From: a virus
Strand: one strand, 5' to 3'
Length of the DNA stretch: 64,000 nt
IMG/VR virus record: IMGVR_UViG_3300021139_000002
Span: 42,022 to 106,021 of that record
This document shows positions 1,755 through 54,987 of the stretch, piece after piece. Positions within the stretch are counted from its first letter, which is position 1, and every line of letters begins with the position of its first letter. Both the position numbers and the translations under genes were made by a program. The notes below the pieces were generated by a model. That model saw nothing but the letters and a program-made list of their open reading frames with translations. It did not search any database and was not told the DNA's origin.

Positions 1755-2215
1755 AATGGTTATTAAATACACTCGAGCGTTTAGGTCGTAAACGTGTTGT
1801 GATGGATAGAATTAACGATGAACCTTATCTTGAACGTTATTACCTTTTTCTTAAAGATAGAAAGCGGTTCCCTTTCAATATGTTTCTTCACCGTTTCCTT
1901 AAGTCAGATCCCGATGATGTGCATGATCATCCATGGCCTTACGCTACACTTATCTTAAAAGGTGGTTATTATGAATGGACTCCTATATTCGACGGAGAAA
2001 ACAAAAAAATCGGAGAAGTACGAAAATGGAAGGGCGCTGGACACTTTCGTACTTGTAGTGCTCGCTCTTATCATCGTATTGAGCTTGACCCTAGCGTAGA
2101 ATGCTGGACATTGTTTATGCCTGGTCCACAAACCCGTGAATGGGGATTCTTATACAAGAATAAGTGGATGCACAACGACGAATATCTTAAAGGTCGAGCT
2201 GAGAGAATTTTGTAA
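1751..2215 (+). CDS. Cupin-like protein
   Basis: 154 residues; its ATG overlaps the glycosyltransferase stop by four bases. The core HDHPWPYATLILKGGYYEW and, later, SYHRIELDP plus CWTLFMPG look like a single cupin barrel, with His residues at HDH and YHR as possible metal ligands. Small cupins of this type are common in aquatic T4-like phages, without assigned function. Possible roles are a sugar epimerase/isomerase-like step or an Fe-dependent oxygenase acting with the adjacent glycosyltransferase; both are inference. Its 3' end overlaps, tail to tail, the minus-strand radical SAM gene by 29 bases. Confidence 0.65.
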   Translation: MKWLLNTLERLGRKRVVMDRINDEPYLERYYLFLKDRKRFPFNMFLHRFLKSDPDDVHDHPWPYATLILKGGYYEWTPIFDGENKKIGEVRKWKGAGHFRTCSARSYHRIELDPSVECWTLFMPGPQTREWGFLYKNKWMHNDEYLKGRAERIL

Positions 2216-3224
2216 TTCTCTGATCATCTTCATTAATGCAGGAAATCATTCCGCATTTTTGAGGACCTTGAGGGGGCATCCATCCAGGATGCCATATATT
2301 GCCTAATGCAATGTTATTGCAATTACTGCCGGATACCCAACCTTGTCCGCCTATATTCAATCTTTCAACTCCAGCATTACATAGTTGTCCTACGTAACTA
2401 GGATGCTTACTATAGGTATCTTCATACCTTTCATCCCAAGTAGTTTCTTGAAAGTAAATCTTTTCTTCTACTAATTTACTTGTCTCCACGGGCGGTGGCG
2501 GTGGCGGTGGTGGGGGAGGAGGTTCCGGAGGCGGTGCTTCTGCTAGTCTACGTCGCATTTCTTCTTCGCGACGTTTTTGTTCTTCAATACGTTTTGCACG
2601 TTCTTCTAAAGTACGTTGACGCATTTCTTTAGACATGTTATAAAAATCAATTTTTTGCAAATCTTCGTATGAATATTTGAGCATACCTGCACTAGGATCT
2701 GCATTAAAATACAATTGAGTTTTCGAAACCAACATATCAATTGTATCTTCTAACTCAAGCACTCTATCAATATCTTCTTGTACATTGGTATTTCTTATAG
2801 GCGCACTAATTGTAAATTTTTTACCTTTGGCATTAAATGTATCTACAATATATTTTATCAATGCAGGATTTTGCCAATGGTGATATGTTAGCACTAAGTT
2901 ATCTACATACGGTTCTAACGCCCACCAATCTAACCAAAGTTTACCGCCATTAGTATGTAGTGTAACACTATCGCCGTTTGCTCTACATAATTTTAAAAAT
3001 TGAGCAATATAATCCATATCTAACGGTTCGCCGCCGTTAAAAATCCATTCTATACTTCTGCCCTGTTTCTCTTTATAAGAATCTATAAGTAATTGAGCAA
3101 TACGTAGATATTCGTTTATTTCGGGAGGAAGGCCGCCTCCCCTAGAATGAGTTGGACAATACTCACATTGGGCTTTGCAGTAATCGTTTAATGTCCAAGA
3201 TATAATTGTTTTTAAATTGTCCAT
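2187..3224 (-). CDS. Radical SAM protein with SPASM-like C-terminus and polyproline insert
   Basis: 345 residues. CKAQCEYC (C16, C20, C23) gives the CX3CX2C motif for the radical SAM [4Fe-4S] cluster, followed by NGGEP at about 63-67 and a TIM-barrel-like region to about residue 190. A charged, probably coiled-coil segment (about 198-229) leads into a near-continuous proline run (231-245). The C-terminus has cysteines C282, C302, C324 and C329 in a SPASM-like context (LCNAGVERLNIGGQGWV, NIALGNI). SPASM enzymes usually modify peptides or proteins; the substrate here is unknown. It is the only minus-strand gene in the left arm and converges on the cupin gene. The long charged/proline linker is not normal for the family. 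Confidence 0.8.
   Translation of the reverse strand: MDNLKTIISWTLNDYCKAQCEYCPTHSRGGGLPPEINEYLRIAQLLIDSYKEKQGRSIEWIFNGGEPLDMDYIAQFLKLCRANGDSVTLHTNGGKLWLDWWALEPYVDNLVLTYHHWQNPALIKYIVDTFNAKGKKFTISAPIRNTNVQEDIDRVLELEDTIDMLVSKTQLYFNADPSAGMLKYSYEDLQKIDFYNMSKEMRQRTLEERAKRIEEQKRREEEMRRRLAEAPPPEPPPPPPPPPPPVETSKLVEEKIYFQETTWDERYEDTYSKHPSYVGQLCNAGVERLNIGGQGWVSGSNCNNIALGNIWHPGWMPPQGPQKCGMISCINEDDQRITKFSQLDL
2202..2221. terminator. Inverted repeat at a convergent gene junction
   Basis: AGAGAATT (2202-2209), loop TTGT, AATTCTCT (2214-2221) form a perfect 8-bp stem at the stop codon of the cupin-like gene and within the end of the minus-strand radical SAM gene. The position suits a bidirectional terminator, but the stem is AT-rich and no strong T-run follows, so function is uncertain. 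Confidence 0.3.
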
Positions 3225-3284: not shown

Positions 3285-3569
3285 ATGGATTTAGACTCAA
3301 AAACTAAAGAAGTAATGGACATTCTACAAGAAGAATGTGCAGAGGTTATACAGGCAGTTAGTAAAATTAGCCGATTTGGAATTGATAACCTTAAACCAGG
3401 CAAACCAAAAACTAATCGAGAACATCTCGAGGAAGAACTCGGAGACATGTTGGCTATGATCGATATCTTAAAAGAAAAAGGTATCGTGTCCGGCGCTTGT
3501 TTAGAAGCAGCCAAATATGCCAAAATTGAAAAACTAAAAAAATGGTCAAACATATATGAGCAAAATTAA
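3285..3569 (+). CDS. mazG: MazG-like nucleotide pyrophosphohydrolase
   Basis: 94 residues from the ATG at 3285; the in-frame ATG at 3252 lies inside the promoter, so it is not used. EECAEVI near residue 17 and EELGDML near 51 give the EExxE...ExxD metal-binding helices of the all-alpha MazG/dUTPase superfamily, which hydrolyse NTPs or dNTPs to monophosphates. In phages these enzymes are proposed to adjust nucleotide pools or (p)ppGpp-related signalling during infection. It is a single-domain form, as in other phages. It overlaps the QueE-like gene by 14 bases and is first in that transcript. Confidence 0.85.
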   Translation: MDLDSKTKEVMDILQEECAEVIQAVSKISRFGIDNLKPGKPKTNREHLEEELGDMLAMIDILKEKGIVSGACLEAAKYAKIEKLKKWSNIYEQN

Positions 3570-4410
3570 AATCGCAGAACTCTTTTACTCAATACAGGGC
3601 GAAGGTCGCTATATGGGCGTTCCCTCTGTATTTCTTCGCACCTTCGGGTGTAACTTTAAATGCCAAGGGTTTGGCATGCCTCGTGGAGAACTTAGCAATG
3701 AAGCAGAAAATATTGACCCGTCTAAGTACACCGAGTACAAATCGTTACCTTTGGTTAGTACAGGTTGTGATAGTTACGCTTCTTGGGATCCTCGCTTTAA
3801 GCATCTATCTCCCCTTCTTTCTACTGATGCGATTGCCACTGCTATTGTTGATACGCTACCGTACAAGGAATGGCGGGACGAACATCTCGTAATCACAGGC
3901 GGCGAGCCATTGCTAGGTTGGCAAAAGCAATATCCAGATTTACTCAATCACGAAAAGATGCGTGGCTTAAAAGAAATTACTTTTGAGACAAACGGCACAA
4001 TGCGTCTAACCTCAGACTTCACACAATTCATAAAAGACTGGGCATGGGATCATGAAAAATCACTAATGCGACAGGTGACATTCAGTGTTAGTGCTAAACT
4101 TCCATGTAGCGGTGAGCCATGGAAAGATGCTATTAAACCAGAGGTTGTTAAATCATATCAAGATACTGGTTCATATGTTTATTTGAAATTTGTTATTAGC
4201 ACAGAGGAGGACCTTAAAGATGCTGAACGAGCAGTTGAAGAATATCGTGCGGCGGGCTTTACTGGTCCTGTGTACATTATGCCTGTTGGTGGCGTTGAAC
4301 GGGTGTACACTCTTAATAATAGATCAGTAGCAGAGATGGCAATGCGAAAAGGATGGAGGTATTCAGACCGACTTCAAGTGCCACTATTTAAAAACGAATG
4401 GGGAACCTAA
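3556..4410 (+). CDS. queE: 7-carboxy-7-deazaguanine synthase-like radical SAM enzyme (QueE) with split cysteine motif
   Basis: 284 residues. YSIQGEGRYMGVPSVFLR is the QueE hallmark, and VITGGEPLLGW is the SAM-binding GGEP strand. The usual CX3CX2C is altered: C32 and C36 are present (CNFKC), but the third cysteine appears only at C71 (TGCDSYASW), separated by a 34-residue segment starting QGFGMPRGELS. The cysteines and the following aspartate are otherwise as in QueE. QueE converts carboxytetrahydropterin to CDG, on the route to preQ0/queuosine and to 7-deazaguanine DNA modifications that protect phage DNA from restriction. No QueC or DpdA-like gene is visible in this window. Confidence 0.82.
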   Translation: MSKIKIAELFYSIQGEGRYMGVPSVFLRTFGCNFKCQGFGMPRGELSNEAENIDPSKYTEYKSLPLVSTGCDSYASWDPRFKHLSPLLSTDAIATAIVDTLPYKEWRDEHLVITGGEPLLGWQKQYPDLLNHEKMRGLKEITFETNGTMRLTSDFTQFIKDWAWDHEKSLMRQVTFSVSAKLPCSGEPWKDAIKPEVVKSYQDTGSYVYLKFVISTEEDLKDAERAVEEYRAAGFTGPVYIMPVGGVERVYTLNNRSVAEMAMRKGWRYSDRLQVPLFKNEWGT

Positions 4411-42723: not shown

Positions 42724-43158
42724 ATGTCCTGGTTCTATGAAAATAAAGAAATAACAGCATTGCCTGAAGATTGTGTAGGATTTGTATATCTTATAACAAA
42801 CACAATTGATGGACGTATGTATATAGGCAAAAAATTAGCAAAATTTAGTAAAACGACCTACAAAACTATTAAGTTGAAGAACGGCAACAAAAAGAAAAAG
42901 AAAATTAGAACTAAGATTGACAGCGACTGGCAGGAATATTACGGGTCCAGCACTGAACTAACGGCGGATATCGCTAAACTAGGCACACAAAATTTTAAAA
43001 GAGAAATACTTTATTATTGCAAATCTAAGGCAGAATGTAGTTACATTGAGGCAAGAGAACAATTTACCCGCAAAGTATTAGAATCAAACGAATATTATAA
43101 CGGACAGATTTCTGTTCGTGTCCATGGCTCCCATATAAAAAACAAATTAAACGGTTAA
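42724..43158 (+). CDS. GIY-YIG endonuclease (Seg-like)
   Basis: 144 residues. GFVYLITNTIDGRMYIGKK supplies the GIY-YIG pair in the form VYL...YIG; EYYGSSTEL and a later IEAREQF give the typical second half with the catalytic Glu. A Lys-rich insert (residues about 45-65, KLKNGNKKKKKIRTK) separates them. T4 has related free-standing Seg homing endonucleases. Here the gene is followed by a 466-base non-coding structured segment, so it might be mobile together with that segment. It could also be a domesticated nuclease. Confidence 0.8.
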   Translation: MSWFYENKEITALPEDCVGFVYLITNTIDGRMYIGKKLAKFSKTTYKTIKLKNGNKKKKKIRTKIDSDWQEYYGSSTELTADIAKLGTQNFKREILYYCKSKAECSYIEAREQFTRKVLESNEYYNGQISVRVHGSHIKNKLNG

Positions 43159-43587
43159 TAAGCAAGCACAAGCTAACATCGTGTGCCCTAAACCTGGATC
43201 TCGGATCGCAGGGATGGAAACCTCTCGCCGTTAAGAGTACTCAATCACTACCCGAAAGGATGAAGATCGCTAATAAGACCTGCGATTTGGTTGTTTGAAA
43301 ATAGATAAATAGGCAAAATGAAGGGTTAGAGACGCCCTACGTTTGTATATATGTTAGCGTATGTATGCAAACCGCCGCTGGAATAAGACGCTGCTCGAGG
43401 TACAGGCCAACCGCCTCTGTAATGCAGTAACGCTAAGTGACATATGTTCGACTCGAATAATGTTTCTTTGCCCTTCCTGGGCAAAGTGTGACTGAACGAT
43501 CTGAATAATATTTAAACTACTTCGTAGTATCAGTATGAAATCAATTGCTTCGAGTGCGAGCGAAGAAGCAAACGAACGCAGTTCGTT
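43159..43587 (+). ncRNA. Candidate structured non-coding RNA segment
   Basis: About 430 bases without a convincing gene, unusually rich in inverted repeats. Seen: GCACA/TGTGC (43166-43170 / 43182-43186); a 9-bp long-range stem joining GATCGCAGG near 43194 with CCTGCGATT near 43280, enclosing CTCT/AGAG and CC-GAAA-GG hairpins; a 12-bp hairpin 43342-43371 with loop TTAGCG, whose exact complement CGCTAA occurs at 43431-43436 (possible pseudoknot); CTTTGCCC/GGGCAAAG (43466-43486); ACTAC/GTAGT (43516-43528); TTGCTTC/GAAGCAA near 43545-43571; and AAACGAA/TTCGTTT (43570-43588), the last running into a late promoter. AATAAGAC occurs twice. No tRNA, tmRNA or group I core could be fitted. Exact ends and strand are unproven. 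Confidence 0.45.
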
Positions 43588-43595
43588 TATAAATA
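43588..43595 (+). promoter_or_regulatory. T4-type late promoter (TATAAATA)
   Basis: Exact TATAAATA, 30 bases before the ATG at 43625, with AGGA at 43611-43614 as ribosome-binding site. It overlaps the last base of the AAACGAA/TTCGTTT hairpin. A second near-match, GATAAATA, is at 43304-43311. Confidence 0.6.
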
Positions 43596-43624: not shown

Positions 43625-44257
43625 ATGCGTATCAATGAATTAATATTAGAACAACAACTTGATGAACTTAATCTTAAAGGGTTAGGAACAGGTTTAGGTA
43701 AGGCTGCTGGTGCAGTAGCCGGAGGTGTAGTTCAAGGTGCTAAAAATATGTGGGCTGGTGCAAAACAGGGATACGATGCAGCTCAACAAGCATTAAAACC
43801 AGATGGTACGCCAGCTACATCTGCTCCTACACAACAACCAAATACTTCTACTGCTCCTGCTAGCCCACAACAACCAGCTGGTGGAGAAGTTGCATCTAAT
43901 AACTTACTTCAAAGAGCACAGCAAGGAACTACTCAAGATCTTAATGCACAGCCAGCTACTCAAGCACCTACAGCTGGTACAACTCCTCAACAAGCAGCCG
44001 CACAGGATCAACAGGCAAAAATAGGAGTAGGACAGATCAATAAGATTATTCCTACTTTAAGAACACGTGATTTACAAAGTGTTAAGAAAAATGTTGATGC
44101 AACTATTGCTAAAAAGTCTAAACAACCAGCAGCTCCTGTTCAACCGCCAGCTCCGACACAAGCTGAATTAGATGCTGACCATGCAAGAATGGCCAGCGGA
44201 ACAAATGAAAGTAAAGTTATTCAATTCCGCAGTAAGTTTTTAGGGATAGATATTTAA
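43625..44257 (+). CDS. Putative internal head/virion protein with capsid-targeting-like N-terminus
   Basis: 210 residues. The N-terminus MRINELILEQQLDEL carries I-L-E at 7-9, fitting the (I/L)xE cleavage rule of the gp21 prohead protease and resembling the capsid-targeting leader of T4 internal proteins (MKTYQEFIAE). A Gly/Ala-rich helix follows (GLGKAAGAVAGGVVQGAKNMW), then a long Pro/Gln/Thr/Ala-rich disordered section (about 55-140), and a basic part (TRDLQSVKKNVDATIAKKSK). It is preceded by an exact late promoter. A packaged, DNA-associated protein is inferred; a tail-associated protein is the alternative. Its stop overlaps the minus-strand gp51-like end by four bases. Confidence 0.6.
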   Translation: MRINELILEQQLDELNLKGLGTGLGKAAGAVAGGVVQGAKNMWAGAKQGYDAAQQALKPDGTPATSAPTQQPNTSTAPASPQQPAGGEVASNNLLQRAQQGTTQDLNAQPATQAPTAGTTPQQAAAQDQQAKIGVGQINKIIPTLRTRDLQSVKKNVDATIAKKSKQPAAPVQPPAPTQAELDADHARMASGTNESKVIQFRSKFLGIDI

Positions 44258-53990: not shown

Positions 53991-53998
53991 GTTAAATA
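53991..53998 (+). promoter_or_regulatory. Possible late promoter after the gp23 terminator
   Basis: GTTAAATA keeps the TAAATA core of the late element (6 of 8) directly downstream of the terminator and 69 bases before the next ATG at 54067. The placement fits renewed late transcription; the match is weak. Confidence 0.3.
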
Positions 53999-54066
53999 CT
54001 ATTCTATGTATTATGCAGTTCCATCTGCGTAGACCTAGAACGTCATATATTTTAAGGAGAAACAAA

Positions 54067-54987
54067 ATGGGACGTCCAATTAAAGCCAAATTTTTTGGTA
54101 ACTTAAACAACGAACAATTTAAAAATGTTGGTGTCAACAGCGGTATCGGTGGTGAAGGTGTTGCAGGTGTAAGTATTAGCAACACTGGTACAGGATATTC
54201 GAGAGGTGCTTTTATAACTTTTTCAGCACCAGACGAGCCAACAGGTGTAACAGCCCAAGGCCATCCAGTGTTTACAACTGACGGTGCTGGCCGTTTTGGT
54301 ATTACTAGCATTGTTATTGATACAGCAGGTAGCGGATATAATTCAGCACCTACAATTACCGTAACAACTGCAACAAGAGTTAATAGTGTTGCTAACAGCG
54401 GTATCGGTGGTCTTAACACATTTACGGTTACAACAGCGACTGGTATTGCAATCGGTATGACTATTTCTGGTGGTTCTACCGGTATTAACGGTAAAGTTAC
54501 AGGAGTTAGCGGTAATATTATTACAAGTACCGTAAACAACAGCGGTACATGGACTAACGCAACTAACTTATTCTTTGCTGACTATGGTTACGGATTTGCT
54601 GATACCGTTACTTTAACTTCAAGTCAAAAGTATTCTGCAATCAAAGGTAATGCTTATATTCCAACAGCCGCAGGCGGTTCTAGCGCAGTTGAATACGACA
54701 TTATCAAACAAGAAGCAAGTCATCGCTATCTTGTAAAAACAGCACAAGGTGTTGGTCAATGCCGTTTGGTATCAACAAGCACAATGACTTCAGGTCAAAT
54801 GAACATCATTGCTACTGATGCTAATGGTAACACATATTATGTTACAAAATTAACTGCTCACAAAGCTCTGTTAACTCGTCAAACACAAAGCGGTTCAAAT
54901 GCTTGGTTATATACAACTGGCCAAACAGCTAAATGGACTATCGGTTCAGCCGCAAGTGGTGTGGTAAGTATTACACATACAATCTAA
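54067..54987 (+). CDS. Virion structural protein (MGRPIKAKFFG family)
   Basis: 306 residues from ATG 54067 with AAGGAG upstream; a longer frame begins inside the preceding terminator and is not used. MGRPIKAKFFGNLN is a frequent start of virion proteins in marine T4-like phages. The middle is repetitive beta (VSISNTGTGYSRGAFITFSAP; IVIDTAGSGYNSAPTITVTTA), with GTGYS/GSGYN repeats, then a compact C-terminal domain (EYDIIKQEASHRYLVKT, QCRLVSTSTM, YVTKLTAHKALLTRQT). Being monocistronic between two terminators beside gp23 suggests an abundant head decoration or accessory protein; this is inferred. Confidence 0.7.
   Translation: MGRPIKAKFFGNLNNEQFKNVGVNSGIGGEGVAGVSISNTGTGYSRGAFITFSAPDEPTGVTAQGHPVFTTDGAGRFGITSIVIDTAGSGYNSAPTITVTTATRVNSVANSGIGGLNTFTVTTATGIAIGMTISGGSTGINGKVTGVSGNIITSTVNNSGTWTNATNLFFADYGYGFADTVTLTSSQKYSAIKGNAYIPTAAGGSSAVEYDIIKQEASHRYLVKTAQGVGQCRLVSTSTMTSGQMNIIATDANGNTYYVTKLTAHKALLTRQTQSGSNAWLYTTGQTAKWTIGSAASGVVSITHTI

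Follow-up and report, generated by a model that had tools for sequence, protein, structure and literature searches.

The Polynucleobacter-1 motif is the first third of a free-standing, pseudoknotted RNA of about 440 nt carried by giant freshwater phages and bacterial mobile elements

We analyzed a 64-kb window, meaning the whole stretch of DNA considered here, which is part of a 106-kb virus record, and found that the space behind a nuclease gene holds a genuine structured RNA, free-standing and about 440 nt long. The 5' part of this RNA is Rfam family RF01718, Polynucleobacter-1, which a 2010 table gives as probably an RNA, probably cis-regulatory, with riboswitch function unclear, from Burkholderiales and fresh water (PMC2864571). 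In place of the leader guessed at in that table, we describe an RNA of three domains: the 5' one is RF01718, the middle one is pseudoknotted, and the 3' one bears two putative recognition units, U1 and U2, together with a terminal hairpin. Hundreds of giant freshwater phages, of the jumbo T4-like kind, carry it, and it also occurs in integrase-bearing mobile elements of Betaproteobacteria; this second home and the paired identical heptamers of U1 and U2 are the features we rank as most important. The RNA is probably part of a working machinery rather than a switch before a gene. Its setting in the window is as follows:

42724..43158, plus strand: GIY-YIG nuclease gene of the SegE family, directly upstream (PF19835, E 3e-33)
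43150..43588, plus strand: whole RNA, about 440 nt, conserved end to end in 127 non-redundant viral homologues, with covarying pairs from 43151 to 43587
43161..43296, plus strand: 5' domain, RF01718 Polynucleobacter-1 (114.6 bits, gathering cut-off 37, E 4e-24, full model 1–141)
43588..43595, plus strand: TATAAATA, late-promoter-like by sequence, for the next gene
43625..44257, plus strand: downstream ORF of 210 aa that varies between phages (no Pfam or PHROG match)

Membership in RF01718 is clear, by score and structure, for the 5' domain alone: the cmscan alignment marks 0 broken pairs among the consensus helices, and helices P2, P3, P4, and P5 covary or hold across the 127 sequences. The Rfam entry covers just the first third of the full-length RNA, and the remainder of 43159–43587 had no Rfam match in a covariance scan of the 64-kb window, which found only RF01718 here even at E up to 1. 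The preliminary description had offered a new class or a smaller GOLLD/ROOL relative; the covariance search argues against the former, since the 5' third is a known family, and against the latter, since RF01718 alone matches and the window contains no tRNA. Its failure to fit a tRNA, tmRNA, group I core, or standard ribozyme was borne out, in that Rfam and ARAGORN scans yielded no tRNA or tmRNA and introns and ribozymes were rejected for lack of an Rfam match. The interval it delimited proved to be a discrete unit with a terminator-like end, conservation among the 127 viral sequences dropping beyond about 43590, but with a true start near 43150, slightly 5' of the position 43159 that had been given. 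As had been suspected, it is non-coding; the homologues contain no conserved internal gene, the longest ATG frame having a median of 41 aa. Elsewhere in the window, right after gp23, a second RNA of unknown function, Rfam RF02980 freshwater-2, lies at 53993–54069 on the plus strand (51.8 bits, cut-off 49.9).

Homologues were gathered with two patterns. An exact 5'-domain pattern returned 77 viral contigs and 4 genome contigs, three loci (L043, L080, and L082) being rejected as chance matches, and a middle-domain pattern returned at least 120 viral contigs; the latter fixes parts of 43399–43415 and 43429–43435, which inflates conservation there for that set. Of 20 divergent middle-pattern loci that were scanned, 19 pass the RF01718 cut-off, which places the middle domain in the same RNA. 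Removal of near-duplicates left 127 non-redundant viral sequences among the matches listed. These were aligned with MAFFT, uncurated by hand, and covariation was scored with our own R-scape-like script, which applies a G-test with background correction to all column pairs against a null in which substitutions are re-placed on the tree. Per-helix counts were checked against slid and shuffled controls, and covariance models were built per domain (R1 and R2) in place of full length. No isolated phage in INPHARED gave a BLAST match to the RNA, and 2.275, Phosso, GAP32, XbC2, Melnitz, and ACP17 contain no credible relative of it, two weak matches sitting inside genes.

The all-pairs test (n = 127) yielded 36 column pairs at E<0.05; 26 of them, Watson-Crick in >85% of sequences, run from 43151-43231 to 43571-43587. 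This substantiates the pseudoknotted non-coding RNA of the preliminary description, all of whose named features (stems, a 9-bp long-range helix, and hairpins) are present in the sequence. The 429-nt fold itself beats shuffles (z −2.28), with 3 of 100 shuffles equally good; chance folding is rejected by the covariation across homologues. The helices, all on the plus strand, are these:

43150-43154/43228-43232, plus: helix P1 (pair 43151-43231 covaries, E 2e-4)
43166-43170/43182-43186, plus: hairpin P2, with pseudoknot PK1 at 43161-43163/43172-43174 (pairs 43168-43184, 43170-43182, and 43162-43173 covary)
43242-43247/43288-43293, plus: P4, enclosing the CC-GAAA-GG hairpin and P5 (43265-43270/43282-43287); 43245-43290, 43246-43289, and 43248-43262 covary
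43342..43371, plus: P7, a 12-bp hairpin with loop TTAGCG at 43354-43359 (92% canonical, two-sided changes in 11 of 12 pairs)
43354-43359 with 43431-43436, plus: pseudoknot PK2 (96% canonical, two-sided changes in 7 of 7 counted pairs)
43377-43381/43407-43411, plus: P8, which in pseudoknot PK3 crosses P9 (43390-43394/43424-43428) and P10 (43397-43400/43414-43417)
43467..43485, plus: P12, hairpin UUUGCCC..GGGCAAA between U1 and U2 (92% canonical, two-sided changes in 2 of 7 pairs)
43546..43570, plus: stem-loop P14 (pair 43549-43567 covaries)
43571..43587, plus: P15, the 3'-terminal hairpin, followed by TTTATAAA and terminator-like (97% canonical, two-sided changes in 6 of 6 pairs)

Three pseudoknots are backed by covariation or compensatory changes. 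For PK1 this is a single covarying pair. PK2, the exact complementarity between the TTAGCG loop and CGCTAA noted in the preliminary description, is kept through compensatory alleles such as UUAGUG/CACUAA, AUAACG/CGUUAU, and UUAGCAG/CUGCUAG, which come mostly from contigs found with the 5' pattern, a pattern that left the PK2 bases free. PK3 shows covariation at 43379-43409, 43380-43408, 43391-43427, 43392-43426, 43393-43425, and 43398-43416, and P8, P9, and P10 are canonical in 98%, 95%, and 98% of cases, respectively. The CC-GAAA-GG hairpin is present as described, at 43252-43259, and P1 reaches into the last codons of the upstream nuclease ORF. Support for P6 and P12 is weak because both hardly vary, and P15 was missed by a simple terminator scan because its T run is short. 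The AATAAGAC repeat that had been noted in two domains is indeed found at 43272 and 43382; it is mostly coincidence, the copy at 43272 lying in a variable loop and that at 43382 in a conserved linker.

The 3' domain carries a different kind of regularity, in two short units on the plus strand:

43449..43462, plus: recognition unit U1, CGA-CUC-GAAUAAU-G
43497..43510, plus: recognition unit U2, CGA-UCU-GAAUAAU-A

Their general forms are NNA-CUC-heptamer-G and NNA-UCU-heptamer-A. The triplets CUC in U1 and UCU in U2 are fixed in 127 of 127 non-redundant sequences, the heptamers occur in about 10 alleles across the RNAs, and within one RNA the U1 heptamer equals the U2 heptamer in 126 of 127 non-redundant sequences (164 of 165 listed loci by direct pattern search), against an identity of about 20% expected by chance from allele frequencies. 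On a tree made without the heptamer columns we counted at least 39 heptamer changes, joint in both copies, part of which could reflect exchange of whole 3' modules between phages. Inside the RNA no third segment forms a covarying Watson-Crick partner for the heptamers. A wobble-tolerant scan found only GUUGUUU at 43290-43296, beside P4, which is no specific pairing signal, as it pairs with 87% of its own heptamers and 83% of foreign ones, and heptamer complements in flanking genes numbered 6, as against 1–9 in controls. The heptamer was also considered as a phage promoter word and rejected, since it is not enriched before ORFs. Because the two heptamers are identical without being complementary, they look like a binding site present twice, for one partner, protein or nucleic acid, that differs between phages. 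The identity points to this arrangement, which is the least sure step of our account; we know of no precedent for a rule of two identical heptamers.

The window phage is, judged by its sequence, related to jumbo T4-like phages, its gp23 major capsid protein being 68–70% identical to those of Vibrio phage 2.275, Phosso, and GAP32. A GIY-YIG nuclease is the upstream neighbor of the RNA in 168 of 191 listed loci, most of the others ending at a contig edge. In three loci (L041, L092, and L176) an unrelated PDDEXK_15 nuclease occupies the same position with no visible change in the RNA, and one locus (L097) has neither nuclease upstream. On the other side, the first genes are unrelated to one another; among 163 listed loci, 106 have a codirectional gene there and 57 a convergent one. 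A TAAATA-type late promoter follows the RNA within 145 nt in 94 of 163 listed loci and precedes it in 2 of 173. Because a late promoter so seldom precedes it, the phage RNA probably arises through transcription that runs on out of the gp46-nuclease unit. Together, the convergent downstream genes, the covarying 3' hairpin, and a divergent gene upstream of all bacterial copies (below) indicate that the RNA is no 5' leader.

Several observations concern the surrounding phage sequence in its own right. The region upstream of gp23 in the window phage contains CTAAATAA, and ATAAATA is 28-fold enriched before the ORFs of this phage, whose late promoter word seems to be NTAAATA and not the T4 octamer, the exact TATAAATA occurring only three times. 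The unrelated proteins encoded downstream of the RNA, at 43625-44257 and in many other loci, share an N-terminal M(K/R)(I/V)xE(I/L), perhaps a targeting signal. Two ORFs, at 3556-4410 and 2187-3224, look radical-SAM-like by eye, and one resembles QueE, a likeness that would suggest modification of phage DNA or of tRNA. Finally, at the corresponding place, between gp46 and the baseplate hub gene, the isolated jumbo phages PA5oct (75849-76799; L223 4850-5800) and Phosso (229839-230659; L224 4840-5660) have 0.8–1 kb that folds much better than shuffled sequence (z −3.4 and −5.1, respectively). The PA5oct interval is annotated with tiny ORFs; neither interval has an Rfam match or similarity to the present RNA.

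RF01718 is also present in bacterial genomes: within the family of a lake betaproteobacterium MAG, 6 of the 299 genomes drawn carry it, one of the six being a weak match that falls short of the cut-off, and an Aquabacterium MAG has it as well. The carriers appear to be Polynucleobacter-like and are probable hosts of these phages. In all seven bacterial copies a divergent DUF6641 gene lies just upstream of the RNA. Most copies are surrounded by integrases, and four are followed by a T4-type clamp loader (phrog_168, E 3e-21). The exact CTAAATAA occurs once or twice per 11–12 kb bacterial locus, and in all seven one copy precedes the RNA by 26–69 nt. The two heptamers are identical in six of these seven RNAs and differ by one letter in the seventh, and the bacterial versions (AGCGAAA, AACAAAA) match no phage allele, so a partner common to phage and element would need flexibility. 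No GIY-YIG or PDDEXK nuclease was seen beside the bacterial copies, and no DUF6641 homologue was found in viral contigs or phages; a single-sequence structure model of DUF6641 (pLDDT 45) was too poor for use. Because the R1 domain model does not detect the bacterial copies, homology of the phage and bacterial middle domains rests on the order of elements and on motifs, not on score. Six of the loci (L203-L206, L208, and L209) are compact integrase elements with DUF6641 and CTAAATAA, four of them with a T4-type clamp-loader-like ATPase, and from this gene content they are probably new phage satellites of Betaproteobacteria. More generally, the bacterial elements appear to be small and phage-responsive, probably satellites of these same phages.

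These observations lead us to a tentative model, which we regard as quite possible, though short of probable, in which full-length Polynucleobacter-1, at about 440 nt, acts in trans as a free-standing RNA and grips one partner twice during infection, and the copy on the element uses or diverts the same machinery. In the phage, the RNA would be transcribed as the tail end of the gp46-nuclease unit, with release or termination at the terminal hairpin. On the bacterial element, the late transcription machinery of an infecting phage may switch the RNA on via the CTAAATAA promoter. The RNA, or an RNA-protein complex, would then hold the same partner through both U1 and U2, and partner and RNA would change together, such that both heptamers drift yet stay identical. 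The element, probably a phage satellite, would carry its own copy of the RNA to use or divert this machinery. A more specific version, a bivalent RNA with two identical changeable words on a fixed scaffold, whose specificity is rewritten in step and with which phage and satellite contest the same target, is in our view doubtful.

The place of the RNA in phages would also suit a structured 3' UTR of the gp46-nuclease mRNA, one that ends transcription and protects or regulates the message in cis: it comes directly behind the nuclease stop codon, P1 overlaps the ORF end, and a late promoter just upstream is found in only 2 of 173 copies. We consider this improbable, as 440 nt and three pseudoknots go far beyond the needs of a terminator, the upstream gene can be swapped for an unrelated nuclease with the RNA showing no visible change, and the bacterial copies have their own promoter-like CTAAATAA and lie divergent from DUF6641. 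That a SegE-type GIY-YIG enzyme or PDDEXK_15 sits in the same place while farther genes vary might instead reflect a mobile cassette, in which a homing endonuclease parasitizes or targets a conserved RNA gene and the job of the RNA is separate. Homing genes typically settle next to conserved genes, a habit this arrangement would match. We judge the cassette unlikely; the nuclease is a near-constant feature of the phages, not a patchy one, it is absent from the bacterial copies, and the idea accounts for the neighbor gene but not for the RNA. A guide RNA of the nuclease (OMEGA/HEARO-like) was rejected on the exchange of GIY-YIG for PDDEXK in L041, L092, and L176 and the absence of a nuclease beside bacterial copies; known guide-RNA families gave no Rfam match.

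Large pseudoknotted phage RNAs are known to form homo-oligomers (PMC12286853), and the phage and mobile-element setting resembles that of ROOL and GOLLD, so the RNA could assemble into a multimer or cage with no protein partner. We find this quite improbable, given that there is no sequence or covariance-model relation to ROOL or GOLLD, that identical heptamers cannot pair mutually, and that a complementary loop was not found. If the RNA were a riboswitch or 5' leader acting on the downstream gene, in line with the 2010 table, the codirectional gene in 106 of 163 loci would be expected; convergent genes in the other 57, the unrelated identities of the downstream genes across loci, and a terminal hairpin with a separate late promoter behind it make this reading highly improbable. 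The cis-regulatory position in that table is a guess at function and not part of the RF01718 covariance model.

Our preferred reading, the trans-acting RNA with one partner held twice, can be set beside described systems. The 5' 141 positions match RF01718 as reported by Weinberg in 2010 (PMC2864571), as do fresh water and Burkholderiales; the present RNA differs in extending another 290 nt or so, over two further pseudoknots, U1/U2, and the terminal hairpin, and in being an RNA of phages and mobile elements, not a probable cis-regulator. With GOLLD and ROOL (PMC12286853) it shares the character of large pseudoknotted non-coding RNAs of phages and prophages of unknown function, but it is shorter, matches none of their Rfam covariance models, has no tRNA neighbors in the 64-kb window, and is tied to a nuclease gene next to gp46. 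That gene belongs to the family of the T4-like SegE GIY-YIG endonucleases (PF19835), whereas the segE genes of Melnitz and ACP17 have no room behind them for such an RNA. A further likeness is to the lytic Vibrio phage ICP1 and its satellite PLE, both of which make abundant large non-coding RNAs (PMC7567579); theirs are not described as relatives, whereas here phage and element share one RNA family.

This work extends a 141-nt database motif to its full 440 nt, defines the ends, hosts, and neighboring genes of the RNA, and relabels Polynucleobacter-1 as free-standing instead of as a leader. Giant phages and elements in bacterial chromosomes are linked by a single RNA and a single promoter word. 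For this member of the class of large phage RNAs, the heptamer identity rule, a sharp and testable property, offers a direct handle on the binding partner.
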